64,000 bases of DNA from Cordylochernes scorpioides (lineage: Eukaryota; Arthropoda; Arachnida; Pseudoscorpiones; Chernetidae): contig CP092865.1 in assembly GCA_030710605.1 (NCBI GenBank), positions 141,505,282 through 141,569,281 of the forward strand, in the 5' to 3' direction. The position numbers and the translations under genes were made by a program. This document shows, in pieces, positions 2,648 through 59,758 of the stretch. Under the pieces are notes generated by a model. It did not search any database, was not told where the DNA came from, and saw only the letters and a list, made by a program, of their open reading frames with translations. Every line of letters begins with the position of its first letter. Position 1 is the stretch's first letter.

Positions 2648-3733
2648 GCCCTACACTCAGGACGCGATTAGAATTGCTTAGCACTAGTACATATTAGTGA
2701 GCTGGACAGTTGGGTAGTTGGCGTTCAGGGCACCAGGAACAAGGTTAAAAAATTCTCTCTTTTCAAGTTATATTTATTTCAAAGAATAGTTGAGGAACTT
2801 TGCAATCTATAAAAAGCACATTTGTGCATTATAAGTCATGCCCTCCAATATGAATATATATAGAGTACTGTATATATAATAAATAAAACAATAATTAATA
2901 AAATTTCATTTTTAAGTAATTGATAAAATTCAATTTTTCAAAACAGAGTAAAGCGATCGATATTTTCGTTTACAAAAAGTAAACATCTGTCCCTTTATAT
3001 ATATATATATCTCTTTTAGCGTTTTATTGTAAATTTATAAGTATAAAATATTAGGGCTTAAATATTTATATTTATTTTAAAATTAAAGCACATAAATACA
3101 AAGAATGGGCGTATTATTAAATTTATAATAATAATACTTTTCTTATGGACAAATTTATTGATAAAATAATAAACAAGAATTAGTGGAAATATATTGCAAA
3201 TCATTTTTAAATTGATAAAATCACAACATATATCTCTTGGTAAGATCTTTAGACTGCGTTTTTTTTGGCAAAATTAAACAATAGATAGTATGATATATGA
3301 ATTAATATTAAAAAATTTGATTAAATAGACTTAATGTTAAAATTTACCTGATTAAGAAATGTACTGGAACTAATATATGATATTTTTTTTCAGGTACACG
3401 GAATACTTCTTGTTCACATCACCCAGGGCAAAATTTAATGTAGCATCTACACTATGTAAATATTAAATTAATTAATCCAAAATATTGCTCCAAACAATAG
3501 TATACATAACTCTTTTCTACTAAAAATTTACTTCTCTTAAATACATTTTAAAAATATATTAACGTCATTGATACTCTAACATTTATTTCCTTCAACTATG
3601 ATTTCAACAAAACTGATGAAAATTCGAAATACTCATTTTTGTAAAACAAATAAGGGATTGATTGAATCTTGAGACAGAATTTTGTTAATATACAAATAAA
3701 TCAAACCATTTTAAAACAAAATAGACCCAAAAG
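2648..3733. other. AT-rich intergenic DNA, nothing recognised
   Basis: Very AT-rich sequence with short TA runs near 2860 and 2997. It is followed by the zinc-finger gene and probably contains its upstream exon boundary or promoter, but no convincing motif was found. Confidence 0.5.
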
Positions 3734-5008
3734 ATGGATAAAAAAATGTTTAAATGTGAATATTGTAACTATGAAACACCTGTAAAGAGCCATCTTAGAA
3801 GGCATATGTGCACACATACTGGTGAAAAACCTTTTAAATGTGAATATTGTGACTATGAAGCAGCACAGAAAAATAATCTTACTAACCATTTGTACACACA
3901 TACTGGTGAAAAGCCTTTTAAATGTGAATATTGTGACTATGAAGCAGCACGGAAACAGGATCTTACTAAACATTTGTACACACATACTGGTGGTAAACCT
4001 TTTAAATGTGAATATTGTGACTATGAAACAGCACGGAAAAATAATCTTACTAACCATTTGTACACACATACTGGTGAAAAACCTTTTAAATGTGAATATT
4101 GTGACTATGAAGCAGCACAGAAAGCGACTCTTACTAACCATTTGTACACACACACTGGTGGTAAACCTTTTAAATGTGAATATTGTGACTATGAAGCAGC
4201 ACAGAAAGCGACTCTTACTAACCATTTGTACACACACACTGGTGGTAAACCTTTTAAATGTAAATATTGTGACTATGAAGCAGCACAGAAAATTAGTCTT
4301 ACTAACCATTTGTACACACATACTGGTGAAAAACCTTTTAAATGTGAATATTGTGATTTCAGATCTTTACTCAAAATAGGTTTAAAAAGACATATTAATA
4401 CTCACACAGGTGAAAAACCTTTTAAATGTGAATATTGTGACTATGAAACAGTACAGAAAAGGAATCTTACTAACCATTTGTACAAACACACTGGTGAAAA
4501 ACCTTTTAAATGTAAATATTGTGACTTTGAAACAGTACAGAAAAAGACTCTTACTAACCATTTGTACACACACACTGGTGAAAAACCTTTTAAATGTGAA
4601 TATTGTGATTTTAGATCTTCACTCAGAGAGAATATAAAAATACATATTAATACTCACACAGGTGAAAAACCTTTTAAATGTGAATATTGTGACTATGAAA
4701 CGGTACAGAAAAAGAATCTTACTAGCCATTTGTACACACATACTGGGGAAAAACCTTTTAAATGTGAATATTGTGACTATAAAGCAGCAAGGAAACAGAC
4801 TCTTACTAACCATTTGTACACACACACTGGTGGTAAACCTTTTAAATGTGAATATTGTGACTATGAAACAGCACGGAAACAGGTTTTTACTCGCCATTTG
4901 TACACACATACTGGTGAAAAACCTTTCAAGTGTGAAAATTGTGATTTTAGAGCAAATAGAAAACAGTGTATTACTGAACACATTTGTAAGCAAATTGTAA
5001 TTGATTAA
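3734..5008 (+). CDS. C2H2 zinc-finger protein (14 canonical fingers plus one degenerate)
   Basis: A 424-codon frame consists almost wholly of 28-residue fingers of the form FKCxYCDYxxxxKxxLTNHLYTHTGEKP. I count 14 Cys2-His2 fingers and a fifteenth in which the second half is HICKQ, so it lacks a normal HxxxH pair. Linkers are TGEKP, or TGGKP between some central fingers. Fingers 5 and 6 are identical in protein, showing recent duplication. Fingers 8 and 11 carry a different class (CDFRSxL...HINTHTGEKP), spaced three apart. The array predicts a nuclear sequence-specific DNA-binding protein; no KRAB, ZAD or BTB domain is present. The start is the ATG of MDKKMFKCEYC. An AG lies directly upstream (CCAAAAG), so this could equally be the last exon of a longer gene. 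AATAAA-like signals lie at about 5250. Similar low-complexity arrays are often expanded in arthropod lineages. Confidence 0.8.
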   Translation: MDKKMFKCEYCNYETPVKSHLRRHMCTHTGEKPFKCEYCDYEAAQKNNLTNHLYTHTGEKPFKCEYCDYEAARKQDLTKHLYTHTGGKPFKCEYCDYETARKNNLTNHLYTHTGEKPFKCEYCDYEAAQKATLTNHLYTHTGGKPFKCEYCDYEAAQKATLTNHLYTHTGGKPFKCKYCDYEAAQKISLTNHLYTHTGEKPFKCEYCDFRSLLKIGLKRHINTHTGEKPFKCEYCDYETVQKRNLTNHLYKHTGEKPFKCKYCDFETVQKKTLTNHLYTHTGEKPFKCEYCDFRSSLRENIKIHINTHTGEKPFKCEYCDYETVQKKNLTSHLYTHTGEKPFKCEYCDYKAARKQTLTNHLYTHTGGKPFKCEYCDYETARKQVFTRHLYTHTGEKPFKCENCDFRANRKQCITEHICKQIVID

Positions 5009-5195: not shown

Positions 5196-5958
5196 TGTTA
5201 GCCTTTCTTAAATATTCAACAAAATATATTCACCAGATTTTCTCTTTGAAATAAATAAAAATAAATGATTAATTGATATTTATTTCAACAGATCATCAGC
5301 AAGCCATCATCAACTTTTATTTAAGCAAAAAGGAGATGCCTTTCTCTTTATCCCAGTACAATATTATTTTTAAAATTATATATACATTTGAATAGCAATT
5401 TCTATACAAGGTTTCTATGACATTAATGTTATCATCGTCATTAAAAGCAAGCAAATATCGTAATAACACCCTGTTTTCCAAACATCACTTATCTATTATT
5501 TATTTTTGTTTCACTCTATCACTATTTTATTTCCATTTTACTCAATATTCTGAATTTTTCGAAAAATAATGTTGGCTAAATTTTTTAACAGACGGCTGGA
5601 GAGTCTTCTAAGTGTAAATATTTTGAACACACAACTAAAATTAAAGATAATCTTATAAACAACCTATATAAAATTACACTGGTAATAATTAAGAGCTTGT
5701 ATTGTAGTTCTAAATTTATATTGGTGCCATCAATTTTGGCCATTTATTTTTGTAAATATGAATGATTTTTTTTTCTTATATACCCCAAATAAACCCTTTG
5801 CATTCAAATATAAAACTATAAATATATTATTGTAATAAAAAAATAGTTTTCATAGTTTTTCTCCTAATTGATCATAGTCATTCTTAGCAGTGCCCTAAAA
5901 TTACAATTGAGATTTTTCTTAACTGCTTTTATTTTGATAACAAATGCTGCTGATGGGG
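5196..5958. other. 3' flank of the zinc-finger gene, no gene seen
   Basis: AT-rich sequence beginning with AATAAATAAA-type polyadenylation signals at about 5248-5262. Around 5615 there is a weak echo of zinc-finger coding sequence (codons for a CKYF-like stretch), possibly a decayed finger array fragment. No other feature is supported. Confidence 0.45.
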
Positions 5959-8266: not shown

Positions 8267-9424
8267 TCACAGGTTCTGTGTGATTTTGGTGCATTTACTC
8301 TTGTATATATAATCGGCTAAGCCGATTTTTCTCCTGTGTGTAAGAGGCAACAAGTAGGCCTCAATCTCTGCAATTTTGGTTGGACAGGTGTTTCTGAGTC
8401 CACATATGATTCTTGCAGCACTGCTCTGTACCTGATCGATTTTATTCAGGTTGGTCTTGCTCGCCATCTGCCACACTGGTTGGGCATATTCTAAGATTGG
8501 TCTGACAAGGGCCAGATATGTTTGGCGCAGAGTATCCCTATCTGCACCCCATTCATATTTAGATATTCTTTTCAGAATGTTAAGTCTCTTTTATGCTCTT
8601 AACACTGTCTGGTTGATATGAGGTCCATAGGTCAGTGAGGGGTCTAAAGTGACTCCAAGGTATTTGGGTGTCCGAGAAAATTTTATTTGATTGTTGTCAT
8701 ATTTGATATTTGGGGTCCATATTTTTAAGGTGGTTGTTTATTGTAAATAATCCTACTTCGGATTTATTAGGGTTTATAATTAATTTCATTTTTTCCGCAA
8801 AGTGTTGTAGTTCTTTCAGCGCCTTGTTTACATTTTTGTTTGCTTCCTTGAGATCTCTCTTTGAGGACCAGATGATTAAGTCATCGGCATAGAGAGCAAA
8901 ATCGCAGTATTTTGTGATTCTAGAGTCCATGTCATTCAGATAGATTGAGAATAGTAGGGGGCTTAGTATGGATCCCTGAGGGAGTCCCTGGAAGAGCCTG
9001 CCAGTTTTTGATAGTTGTTCTTTGAAGTTAACCTGGAAGGTCCTTCCGGTCAGAAAGGATCCAATCCAACCCATCATCTTCCCCCTTATACCTATAGTTT
9101 GTCCAGCTTCTTAATTAACCTTTCTTTCCACACTCTATCAAAAGCCTGGCTTAAGTCTATAAAAGCGGCTATGGTTGACTTTGTTGGTTTACTTTGGAAG
9201 TTGTCTTGAATTTTCTGTGTGAAGTAGAAAATCTGGTCTACTGTGTTATGATATTTTTTGAAAGCTGCCTGCTGTTTTGTAAGTAACTTGTTTTTGTTTA
9301 GGAAGTATTGCATTCTATTTAGTATCACACGCTCCATGAGTTTGCATGGTATGGAGGTTAGTGATATTGGTCTATAACTCTGTGGGTGGTTTTCTGTTTT
9401 TCCTCCTGGATTGCATGCTTCCAT
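8267..9424 (-). pseudogene. LINE reverse transcriptase domain
   Basis: From 9424: SYRPISLTSIPCKLMERVI (RT block 1-2), AAFKKYHNTVDQI, then AAFIDLSQAFDRVW (block with the first catalytic Asp). After a frame change at about 9077: GLPQGSILSPLLFSIYLND, then FALYADDLIIWS with the YADD catalytic pair, and the thumb QSSAARIICGLRNTCP in a third frame at 8267-8476. The polymerase copies element RNA at the nicked target. At least two frame breaks are visible, so this is a relic. Confidence 0.85.
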
Positions 9425-31406: not shown

Positions 31407-31477
31407 TGTTTGGAACTAAATATATATATATATATTCTACTAGCCGAATGACCCGGGCAACGCCCGTGTTTTACCCG

Positions 31478-31534
31478 ACTGTAGATGTTACAACGGTGAT
31501 ACTTAGGTCGCTGGTTCAAATCCGGCTCGAGGGA
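31478..31534 (+). pseudogene. tRNA-Tyr, 5'-truncated
   Basis: Begins in the anticodon loop (ACTGTAGATG) and contains intron, anticodon 3' stem, T arm GGTTCAAATCC and acceptor 3' strand. The 5' half, with A box, is missing; it is joined directly to the Helitron 3' terminus. Confidence 0.75.
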
Positions 31535-31695
31535 GCCGGCGAGCACGTGACCTCCCTGTGCGCGCGCATCCGTAACAGAGGCCGATGAGGAAAGACAGTC
31601 GTGACTATATATAGGGATAATATATTTTACATTTTGTGTGTGTAGAAATAGGATTAGTTGACTTTATAAGGTAAACTTATTCATACAGTTTGTAT

Positions 31696-31782
31696 CCCTC
31701 GATAGCTCATTTGGCAGAGCGGAGGACTGTAGATGTTACAATGGTGATCCTTAGGTCGCTGGTTCAAATCCGGCTCGAGAGA
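31696..31782 (+). tRNA. tRNA-Tyr (GTA) with intron
   Basis: Cloverleaf: acceptor CCCTCGA/TCGAGAG (one mismatch at pair 2-71), D arm GCTC...GAGC, anticodon stem GAGGA/TCCTT with loop CTGTAGA, anticodon GTA, and an intron of about 14 nt (ATGTTACAATGGTG) after the anticodon loop, where eukaryotic tRNA-Tyr introns lie. T arm GGTTCAAATCC is the B box. A T-run (31785-31793) follows, a possible Pol III terminator. Its location in a Helitron and the acceptor mismatch leave its activity uncertain. Confidence 0.75.
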
Positions 31783-31895
31783 GTTTTTTTTTTAATTTTT
31801 ATTGGCTGCCGGCGAGCACGTGACCTCCCTGTGCGCGCGCATCCGAGACAGAGGCCGATGAGGAAAGACGGTCTTGACTATATATAGGGATTATA

Positions 31896-32097
31896 TCAAC
31901 TATATTAATTAAATCAAATACCTAAACACTAATATAATACAATTTTTGCCATCACACACACTTTTTTTCCTGTAGTTTATGTGTTAATTCTGTATTGCTA
32001 TTCTATGGCACTTCTAATATTTATTATTGATATACTTTTAGTATGAAGGAAATTGCACCCAAGAGATTTCTCGGGCGAAGCCGGGTCATTCTCCTAG
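31896..32097 (+). mobile_element. Small plus-oriented Helitron-like insert
   Basis: A plus-strand 3' terminus CTCGGGCGAAGCCGGG then TCATTCTC and CTAG ends at 32097 and is followed by T. A start TCAACTATATTAATT preceded by A lies at 31896. If these are its ends it is 202 bp, nested in Helitron 1 in opposite orientation; the 3' end is firm, the 5' end is a guess. Confidence 0.45.
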
Positions 32098-32154
32098 TAA
32101 TATATATTTATATTATATAAAATATAAATGAGTTTTAAAAATTGTAAAAAAAAA

Positions 32155-32224
32155 TGCATCGGCCGGAATCGAACCCGGGCCGCCCGCGTGGCAGGCGAGC
32201 ATTCTACCACTGAACCACCGATGC
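32155..32224 (-). tRNA. tRNA-Gly (GCC), tandem copy 1
   Basis: Minus strand GCATCGGTGGTTCAGTGG..., anticodon GCC, acceptor GCATCGG/CCGATGC. One G is missing from the T stem (TTCCGGCC in place of TTCCCGGCC), so this copy is probably impaired. T-run at its 3' side on the minus strand. Confidence 0.8.
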
Positions 32225-32491
32225 TTAAAAAAAATGACCATATTTAGGTATTCATTCCATTCCGGATTAGTCCGCGTAAAAAAGTTCTTCAAATGAAAAA
32301 AAGAAATAGCCAAAAATACTAATCAAAATGCGGCCAAAAATTTTCCTCAGGTTTATAAAAAGCGACATGCAAAATTTGGTACCAATTGGTTCAGTAGTTT
32401 TTGAGTTTATCGCGAAACAGACAGAGAGAAATTGACTTTTATATATAGAGAGATATAATATAAATGAGTTTTAAAAATTGTAAAAAAAAAA

Positions 32492-32562
32492 TGCATCGGC
32501 CGGGAATCGAACCCGGGCCGCCCGCGTGGCAGGCGAGCATTCTACCACTAAACCACCGATGC
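32492..32562 (-). tRNA. tRNA-Gly (GCC), tandem copy 2
   Basis: 71 nt with the discriminator A. Full stems; a single change in the D loop (GTTTAGTGG for GTTCAGTGG). A run of eight T follows on the minus strand, a good Pol III terminator. Confidence 0.85.
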
Positions 32563-32836
32563 TTTAAAAAAATGACCATATTTAGGTATTCATTCCATTC
32601 CGGATTAGTCCGCGTAAAAAAAAGTTCTTCAAATTAAAAAAAGAAAGAAATAGCCAAAAATACTAATCAAAATGCAGTCGAAAATTTTCCTCAGGTTTAT
32701 AAAAAGCGACATGCAAAATTTGGTACCAATTGGTTCAGTAGTTTTTGAGTTTATCGCGAAACAGACAGAGAGAAATTGACTTTTATATATAGAGAGATAT
32801 AATATAAATGAGTTTTAAAAATTGTAAAAAAAAAAA

Positions 32837-32907
32837 TGCATCGGCCGGGAATCGAACCCGGGCCGCCCGCGTGGCAGGCGAGCATTCTACCACTAAACCA
32901 CCGATGC
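32837..32907 (-). tRNA. tRNA-Gly (GCC), tandem copy 3
   Basis: Same sequence as copy 2, with the GTTTAGTGG D loop, and followed by a T-run on the minus strand. Copies 2 and 3 sharing this change shows that the later amplification passed through one of them. Confidence 0.85.
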
Positions 32908-33182
32908 TTTAAAAAAATGACCATATTTAGGTATTCATTCCATTCCGGATTAGTCCGCGTAAAAAAAAGTTCTTCAAATTAAAAAAAGAAAGAAATAGCC
33001 AAAAATACTAATCAAAATGCAGTCGAAAATTTTCCTCAGGTTTATAAAAAGCGACATGCAAAATTTGGTACCAATTGGTTCAGTAGTTTTTGAGTTTATC
33101 GCGAAACAGACAGACAGAAATTGACTTATATATATATATAGAGATATAATATAAATGTTTTAAAAATTGTAAAAAAAAAAAA

Positions 33183-33253
33183 TGCATCGGCCGGGAATCG
33201 AACCCGGGCCGCCCGCGTGGCAGGCGAGCATTCTACCACTGAACCACCGATGC
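33183..33253 (-). tRNA. tRNA-Gly (GCC), tandem copy 4
   Basis: 71 nt. D loop GTTCAGTGG and T stem CCGGG/CCCGG are canonical; by eye it matches the conserved arthropod tRNA-Gly(GCC) throughout. It is followed by a T-run on the minus strand. The copy most likely to be functional. Confidence 0.88.
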
Positions 33254-33485
33254 TTTAAAAAAATGACCATATTTAGGTATTCATTCCATTCCGGATTAGT
33301 CCGCGTAAAAAAGAGTTCTTCAAATTAAAAAAAGAAATAGCCAAAAATACTAATCAAAATGCAGCCGAAAATTTTCCTCAGGTTTATAAAAAGTGACATG
33401 CAAAATTTGGTACCAATTGGTTCAGTAGTTTTTGAGTTTATCGCGAAACAGACAGACAGAAATTGACTTATATATATATAGAGAT

Positions 33486-33529
33486 ATGGAACGCTTCACG
33501 ATTTTGCGTGTCATCCTTGCGCAGGGGCC

Positions 33530-33569
<40 letters not shown>

Positions 33570-33588
33570 ACCGCCGAACAAGCGTGTT
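33486..33588 (-). ncRNA. U6 snRNA copy
   Basis: Minus strand contains the near-invariant U6 body: ATACTAAAATTGGAACGATACAG (shared core ACTAAAATTGGAACGATAC), AGATTAGCATGGCCCCTGCG with the ACAGAGA-like box, and GATGACACGCAAAATCGTGAAGCG. The 5' stem-loop differs from consensus (CGCTTGTTCGGCGGTAC). There is no T-run after the 3' end; it passes straight into the Helitron 5'-end repeat, and no TATA/PSE promoter is visible upstream. Probably a captured or chimeric copy rather than an expressed gene. Confidence 0.8.
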
Positions 33589-33753
33589 ATAGAGATAGAG
33601 ATTAATCTGTAAATAAATATTTATCATCATCATAAACAATACTAATAAGATGTATAATGTAAACAACGTTTTGATGTAAAAATATGAATATAAAGTGTAA
33701 TAAACAATTTGTACAAATCATATTCTTAATTATCAAAATATAAACACCAAACA

Positions 33754-52962: not shown

Positions 52963-53169
52963 TAGTTTATATTAGGGAAAGATATACGAAATTTAATAGG
53001 TTCTGCAGACTTTTTATTATAAACTAGCCGAATGACCCGGGCAACGCCCGGGTTTTACCCGATTAAATGCTTTTTTTCATATAATATTCGTTACAATTAT
53101 AAATTGGCGCCGTGGATGTCATTCTTGTATAATATATAAATGAGTTTTAAAAATTGTAAAAAAAAAAAA

Positions 53170-53240
53170 TGCATCGGCCGGGAATCGAAACCGGGCCGCC
53201 CGCGTGGCAGGCGAGTATTTTACCACTGAACTACCGATGG
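53170..53240 (-). pseudogene. tRNA-Gly (GCC) pseudogene
   Basis: Same tRNA as the array at 32 kb but with changes in the first acceptor base, D stem (GGTAGTTCAG), anticodon-arm flank and T stem (CCCGGTTTCG). The anticodon GCC remains. Confidence 0.8.
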
Positions 53241-55082: not shown

Positions 55083-55126
55083 TATATATTGGCATCATAT
55101 ATTAACTTTATGAACGGAAAAATATG

Positions 55127-55199
55127 TCCAGGGTAGCCTAGTGGTCATGGCATCTGCCCGGTAAGCGGAAGGTCGTGGGTTCGATTCCCATCCCTTGAC
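55127..55199 (+). tRNA. tRNA-like gene, anticodon GGT (Thr by code), position 33 is C
   Basis: Acceptor TCCAGGG/CCCTTGA (one mismatch), D arm GCCT...TGGC, anticodon stem TCTGC/GCGGA, loop CCGGTAA, T arm GTGGG/CCCAT with loop TTCGATT, then a T-run (55201-55207). The loop has C at the normally invariant U33, and GGT is unusual for eukaryotic Thr. It may be a tRNA-derived SINE head rather than a translating tRNA. It lies in Helitron 2. Confidence 0.55.
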
Positions 55200-55293
55200 A
55201 CTTTTTTTATTTTATCCATTCTGACCAAAATCTATCCGTGAACTTCACACAGTGAACTTCAAACAGACAGAATAAGGCAATTATATAAGTAGA

Positions 55294-59295: not shown

Positions 59296-59758
59296 CTAGA
59301 GACGAATGACCCGGGCAACGCCCGGGTTTTACCCGATTAAATGTTTTTATTCAAATACTATTTGTTACAATTATAGCACGGCGGCGGTGGGGCCCGTTGG
59401 CTCCCGGCGTTCACGCGACTTCCCTGTGCGCGCATGGCTGTCCCGAGGGCCCACGTGACCGCCCGCCATTTCCGCCGCACAGGGAGGTAACGTGCACGCC
59501 CGCAGCCAATCGTCGCGCGCCGCCGTCGACGCCTGAGTGTTCTAGAGGGCGCTGCTCGTGACTTAAGTTGAATAATTTGAATATATAGTTTAAATAAATG
59601 ATTTATATATTTTTTAAAATAGCCTATCGTCATCCCCGTTATTTTTTACCTATGTATGGAAATTTTGGTTTGAATTAGTGAACTACTGCGAATTTGTATA
59701 CCGGACATACAGACCAACAAACAAACATACAAACATTCATTTTTATATATATAGAAGA
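59296..59758 (-). mobile_element. Non-autonomous Helitron with GC-rich cargo (Helitron 3)
   Basis: Minus strand 5' end TCTTCTATATATATAAAAATG at 59758 next to T; 3' hairpin CCCGGGCGTTGCCCGGG, TCATTCGTCT and CTAG at 59296 next to A. 463 bp. Interior 59380-59560 is strongly GC-rich and CpG-rich, with CCCTGTGCGCGCAT also seen in Helitron 1 (31556 and 31828). No tRNA found in it. Confidence 0.75.

Follow-up and report, generated by a model that had tools for sequence, protein, structure and literature searches.

Stacked tRNA-Gly genes in composite Helitrons of the pseudoscorpion Cordylochernes scorpioides

Anatomy of the tRNA-bearing block

A 64,000-nucleotide stretch of contig CP092865.1 from the pseudoscorpion Cordylochernes scorpioides, referred to here as the window, contains at 31440-33601 on the minus strand a block of tRNA genes bounded by Helitron ends. 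Helitrons have TC...hairpin-CTRR ends, insert between A and T without target duplication, and can contain captured host DNA. The block starts with TC (33600-33601) after an A at 33602 and ends with CTAG (31440-31443) followed by T, i.e. the termini given for it in the initial annotation are present. tRNA and other non-coding RNA genes were called with ARAGORN and Rfam, and tandem repeats with Tandem Repeats Finder (TRF). ARAGORN reports five tRNAs and Rfam the same five, one tRNA-Tyr on the plus strand and four tRNA-Gly(GCC) on the minus strand. With a truncated second tRNA-Tyr and a U6 copy, this is the complete set of RNA polymerase III (Pol III) genes previously claimed for the block.

Along the minus strand the order is the A/TC start at 33601, the U6, four units of an F1 5' end with tRNA-Gly, an inverted 3' part, two Tyr modules and the final hairpin-CTAG/T. 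According to TRF, a 345-bp unit is repeated 4.0 times with 96% matches at 32117-33487, and each unit is formed by a Helitron 5' end (F1, ~230 bp), a tRNA-Gly(GCC), a T-run and a 3' flank. In unit 1, which adjoins the U6, the F1 module is located at 33256-33484 and the tRNA at 33183-33253. The corresponding positions are 32910-33142 and 32837-32907 in unit 2, 32565-32797 and 32492-32562 in unit 3, and 32228-32453 and 32155-32224 in unit 4, where the tRNA has 70 nt and is shorter by one base. The inverted 3' part of another Helitron (31900-32097, plus strand) ends with CTAG and then T (3' end 32072-32097), and is also present in loci L004, L007, L008, L014, L029 and L030 fetched from the genome.

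Both Tyr modules lie on the minus strand and start with TCCCTATATATAG, at 31890 and 31617, and in both the tRNA-Tyr is antisense. Tyr module 2 (31618-31890) has a Helitron-like 5' end and the full intron-bearing tRNA-Tyr (31695-31783, plus strand). Tyr module 1 (31440-31617) is a 178-bp mini-Helitron with a 5' TCCC, a partial tRNA-Tyr in which the 5' part is missing (31477-31535, 59 nt, 95% identity), a hairpin and the CTAG at 31440. This hairpin is weak, -7 kcal/mol with a z of -1.5; the two other 3' ends in the window have hairpins of -10.1 kcal/mol, and the three window ends span z values from -1.5 to -3.6. No open frames of at least 150 amino acids were found in the block. The block consists of stacked modules that derive from two or more mini-Helitron families.

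We searched the whole C. scorpioides genome, 2.62 Gb in 24 contigs. One protein encoded in the window has annotated C. scorpioides proteins as matches, with 95% identity over 99% for the best. Rfam places the U6 at 33480-33585 on the minus strand (102.9 bits, E 1.2e-25), and from this hit, the flanking repeats and the single junction the U6-derived insertion is delimited to 33487-33587, 14 bp inside the 5' end. The initial annotation counted U6 as cargo and described the cargo as Pol III genes only. We rejected U6 as cargo because, among 2,640 U6-like places in the genome, the U6-Helitron junction is found at one, the window, because the insertion lies between the copies of a 10-bp target duplication TATCTCTATA (33588-33597 and 33477-33486), and because the 5' start TCTCTATCTCTATATATA of the window copy is also found in L034, where no U6 is present. 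The repeat is simple in sequence and chance could account for part of it; the unique junction is the stronger evidence. By reading, no recognisable Helitron end was found in five stretches with U6 copies (L051-L055). U6 is an unrelated, later insertion in the 5' end.

U6-like sequences are amplified in their own right, and the copies in L051-L055 occur in CT/AG repeats, at AT-rich sites or in tandem arrays, some of which are spaced by 99 to 191 bases.

Genome-wide copies, stacks and insertion sites

The tRNA-Gly pattern (57 nt, at most 3 mismatches) matches 23,177 genome places, and its reversed control 0. Reversed control patterns gave 0 matches each versus thousands for the real patterns, i.e. 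the counts are not due to chance, and a tRNA-Lys control pattern matched 31 places, none exactly, which gives a rough baseline. The F1 5'-end pattern is found at 9,384 places and the F2 junctions at 5,247. Thus, the units of a Helitron 5' end with a tRNA, recognised in the initial annotation at this locus, are modules that exist far beyond it. tRNA-Gly accompanies at least 71 of the 100 exact F1 5' ends listed: 70 have an exact 13-nt word at the right spacing, the 71st has an exact tRNA slightly outside the set spacing, and 29 could not be assigned. Among the 100 listed exact tRNA-Gly copies, an exact F2 junction precedes 30 and an exact F1 precedes 16, with neither in exact form for 54.

The fetched loci were chosen by tRNA-Gly or by sequence similarity, and shares among them are not genome shares. 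Upstream of the tRNA-Gly, each of the 20 loci retrieved around exact copies (L031-L050) has a Helitron-like 5' module, identified as F1 in 7 by BLAST and, by eye, as F2 in 11 and as F3 in 2. The outer 5' ends of F1, F2 and three F3 copies (the window at 53 kb, L033, L045) differ, and the T-run and a ACAATTTTTAAAACTCATTTATA-type flank behind the tRNA are common to them; L032 lacks this 3' flank. F1 and F3 also have ~27 bp before the tRNA in common, with two differences, and a fourth upstream context of tRNA-Gly is seen in L020, L021 and L038. Since one 3' flank is common to copies behind several 5' ends, the sequences are most simply explained if tRNA-Gly was captured once, followed by exchange of the 5' end and stacking.

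CTAG-terminated composites of the form F1-F1-Body-3' end are found in L034, L037 and L039, each with flanks of its own. L005 contains a similar composite with three F1 units, and the arrays reach eight units and tRNAs in L008. By a script that required CTAG we delimited 51 elements, leaving out L001 and L002 as overlaps. T follows all 51, a strictly placed A precedes 37, and 42 contain tRNA-Gly; taking the CTAG ends together, T follows at 62 out of 62, 61 of them distinct. Nine delimited elements were counted without Gly. One of these (L046) is misdelimited and does have Gly, four have an antisense tRNA-Thr, one has a partial tRNA-Tyr, L029 has Gly on the opposite strand only, and L003 and L031 have none. 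Helitrons without tRNA exist (window 59296-59758, L003 838-1359, L031 3315-4025), and the 23,177 tRNA-Gly places compare with 70,232 places for the 37-nt Helitron 3'-end pattern, ~3 times as many.

The evidence for an empty site and for insertion without target duplication comes from one clear case, the element at 5214-6177 of L036, with Gly and an antisense Thr, which splits a tandem satellite between A and T with no duplication or loss. The Rep domain (PF14214) was scored at 150 of 1,987 candidate places, all above the cut-off, and the control genomes gave 0/14. Of the 150 rows, 31 are in open frames of 1,384 or 1,386 amino acids. The elements show TC after A and a 3' hairpin with CTRR and then T, the L036 case shows no target-site duplication, and a putative Rep-bearing partner is present in the genome.

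A ~32-bp satellite, GAATGTAAGATAAAAAGCCAACAATGAAGAGT, borders or is split by Helitrons in L036, L049 and L018.

Further tRNA cargoes and the state of the genes

In 362,012 bases (the window and the loci) there are 13 tRNA-Thr calls, 12 GGT and one AGT. Seven of them are antisense and located ~90 bp behind an F2-type 5' end, in L020, L021, L024, L036, L050 (twice) and at 55126-55201 of the window; L020 and L021 are near-copies of one another. The presence of a tRNA behind each type of 5' end was then classified locally. Of the 28 F2-type ends, 18 are followed by Gly and 6 by Thr, and 4 have no match to any of the three tRNAs tested within 330 bp; three more ends were left out as cut off or identical. 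The 111 F1 ends have 78 Gly in sense orientation, one Gly reversed, one Thr and 31 without tRNA, many of the latter being Body ends matched by the fuzzy pattern. Five of the seven F3 ends have Gly and two have none. For Body, nine of the ten ends have none and one has Thr, after leaving out 14 that are identical to counted places and 5 that are cut off.

For tRNA-Tyr, a 34-nt half matches 3,662 genome places and its junction with the Helitron 3' end 1,980. Among the 100 listed exact tRNA-Tyr halves, 32 adjoin an exact 3'-end junction, and a 178-bp copy of Tyr module 1 is found at 3298-3475 of L050. Antisense tRNA-Tyr and tRNA-Thr are the second and third Helitron cargoes, located near the 5' end.

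Two side observations concern these tRNAs. Six of the 13 tRNA-Thr calls do not belong to the F2-type Helitrons and lie in a different repeat, palindromic in part, whose ACGGAAAAAT-type flanks are inverted; these tRNA-Thr(GGT) are located at L015 548-623, L037 501-981 (two calls) and L039 4664-5390 (three calls). On contig C2 (320151-410409) the Tyr/3'-end junction recurs on one strand with ~10-kb spacing over nine listed places, with one gap of ~18 kb, which suggests a segmental tandem array.

To judge the state of the tRNA-Gly genes we used the 116 non-redundant full units of the loci and the window. A tRNA-Gly(GCC) is called in 110 of them, and a T-run of at least four T is present just downstream in all 116. 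After excluding homopolymers and subfamily sites, the divergence is 1.39% in the tRNA versus 1.48% in the 5' flank (56 units, 27 loci), a ratio of 0.94 (95% 0.66-1.47) from a small sample leaning to young copies. The divergence of F2 is uninformative, as most F2 copies were picked by an exact tRNA match. One variant, C11, is found in 34 of the 116 units, and 31 of these 34 are still called Gly(GCC); by the standard cloverleaf we take it to break a pair of the D-stem. Because the tRNA and the 5' flank diverge alike, the tRNAs are most likely young passengers, whose intactness would be due to recent amplification.

Proposed history, alternatives and related systems

Taken together, we consider it likely that the block is a composite, non-autonomous Helitron from a large and young set of families, in which a Gly fragment was captured, stacked and spread, the tRNAs being passengers and U6 a later arrival. 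The anatomy, the ends, the copy numbers, the composites at different sites, the independence of U6 and a divergence of the tRNA like that of its 5' flank are direct observations. The history would start with a fragment containing tRNA-Gly(GCC), its T-run terminator and ~35 bp of 3' flank, captured beside a Helitron 5' end, most simply once judging from the common flanks. The Gly module would then have been placed behind several 5' ends (F1, F2, F3 and the fourth context). Head-to-tail stacking would have followed; most units extend from a 5' TC up to the last base ahead of the following one, the pattern that a rolling-circle nuclease would leave by acting at an internal 5' end or by running through a stop. 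The spread to more than 23,000 tRNA places was presumably driven by the Rep-bearing Helitrons of the genome. Related families contain antisense tRNA-Thr and tRNA-Tyr, also near the 5' end, and the U6-derived sequence was inserted later, 14 bp inside the 5' terminus of the window copy.

Several points weigh against this history. The tRNA has a lower raw divergence than the 5' flank, 2.7% vs 4.1%, and the short 3' flank a higher one than the tRNA, with 6.4% on 14 sites; both could be read as constraint. Due to the choice of loci by tRNA-Gly or similarity, integrity and divergence lean to young copies. Of the 51 delimited elements, no more than 37 have a strictly placed A in front, the other 14 being blurred by fuzzy matching, misdelimited or unclear, and the tie of the Rep elements to these termini is assumed. 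Finally, the use of one tRNA by several 5' ends and the three kinds of tRNA close to such ends could reflect a preference for tRNAs.

A preference of Helitron 5' ends for tRNA genes as partners in this genome, through biased capture or because the genes are helpful, is in our estimate an outside chance. If true, the Pol III machinery just inside the 5' terminus would open the DNA as a bubble or R-loop and promote capture, rolling-circle initiation and stacking. This would explain F2 with Gly or Thr, several 5' ends with one Gly, and stacks that transpose as units.

The first form, in which the Helitrons preferentially join Pol III genes beside their 5' ends, for example at transcription bubbles or R-loops, had been proposed in the initial annotation. 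The tRNA-Thr found as a further cargo raises its odds: all three kinds, Gly, Thr and Tyr, are close behind Helitron 5' ends, one F2-type 5' end is joined to any of Gly, Thr or no tested tRNA in the proportions given above (n=28), L036 5214-6177 holds Gly and Thr together, and the block is devoid of longer open frames. However, U6 is unrelated, the common 3' flank makes the Gly copies one event, and elements without tRNA exist. tRNA-Thr is also present in another repeat (6 of 13 calls; L015, L037, L039) and may have been abundant before capture, and three events without a random expectation are no proof. Three captures are suggestive, and the rejection of U6 as cargo and the tRNA-less elements count the other way; we regard the bias as possible but rather unlikely.

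The second form, in which Pol III occupancy of a gene close to the 5' end keeps chromatin open or blocks silencing and thereby raises transposition, appears improbable. It would account for one tRNA following several different 5' ends, for stacks of up to eight tRNAs (L008), for the retention of the tRNA at 71 or more of the 100 exact F1 5' ends listed, and for the 110 of 116 units called tRNA-Gly(GCC). However, the tRNA and the 5' flank are equally diverged and the C11 variant was amplified too (34 of 116 units), i.e. we see no sign of the benefit from Pol III promoters suggested earlier. In addition, there are elements without tRNA, and Thr and Tyr are antisense versus Gly in sense, which leaves no common direction of transcription. 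Arrays of tRNA-derived short interspersed nuclear elements (SINEs) into which Helitron ends were inserted are hardly credible and were rejected: high-copy tRNA-headed repeats are usually SINEs, but the tRNA gene is complete with its own T-run, the units start at the Helitron TC, the composites end with hairpin-CTAG and then T, and the copies read by eye have Helitron ends and no retroposon tail.

The window contains other elements on the minus strand. A second tRNA-Gly-bearing Helitron piece at 53024-53240 has an F3-type 5' flank, a hairpin and a CTAG at 53024. An F2b-type Helitron 5' end at 55126-55293, with the TC at 55293 after A, carries the antisense tRNA-Thr(GGT) at 55126-55201; a 3' end was not recognised close by. 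The Helitron at 59296-59758, read directly, is 463 bp long with a hairpin, no tRNA is reported in it by ARAGORN or Rfam, and it has a GC-rich insert like part of the Tyr module. A 427-amino-acid frame with ~14 tandem 84-bp zinc-finger repeats is located at 3725-5008.

Compared with the composite Helitrons described here, Helitrons that capture gene fragments have the same ends, A-T insertion and captured host DNA, but carry pieces of protein genes, while the cargo here is a whole tRNA gene in a stackable 5' module. tRNA-derived SINEs are likewise high-copy tRNA sequences, but they are retrotransposed and tailed, and the copies read here have Helitron ends. Apart from the Arabidopsis case below, we saw no description of Helitron families that carry tRNAs among the papers listed by our searches, which left most subscription journals outside their coverage; for pseudoscorpions and Helitrons the one paper listed concerned filarial nematodes.

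The nearest precedent, as far as the accessible text of PMC10701932 goes, is small and uncertain. A tRNA-Cys cluster on chromosome 5 of Arabidopsis thaliana, with four tRNA genes in 0.4-kb units, overlaps annotated Helitrons, and its authors discuss one-ended transposition and tandem arrays. According to the same text, three Helitron finders gave no reliable Helitron over the tRNA genes of the cluster (PMC10701932). The likeness is in tRNA genes within repeat units tied to Helitrons; in the pseudoscorpion, unlike in that single cluster, one can see the termini, an insertion that leaves no duplication, and copies in the tens of thousands. Dada transposons, in the available parts of PMC3706591 and PMC8869645, also link mobile DNA to tRNA and small nuclear RNA genes, but they insert into small RNA genes, while here the tRNA travels inside the element.

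The finding presents rolling-circle transposons as vehicles for multiplying whole tRNA genes, one of which has reached tens of thousands of copies, which the accessible text of the closest paper (PMC10701932) only raises as a possibility. It is also a warning that numbers of tRNA genes reported for such genomes may in effect count transposons. The family provides a natural system to study the acquisition and stacking of Helitron 5' ends, a possible preference for tRNA genes as partners, and the transcription or silencing of thousands of additional tRNA-Gly genes.

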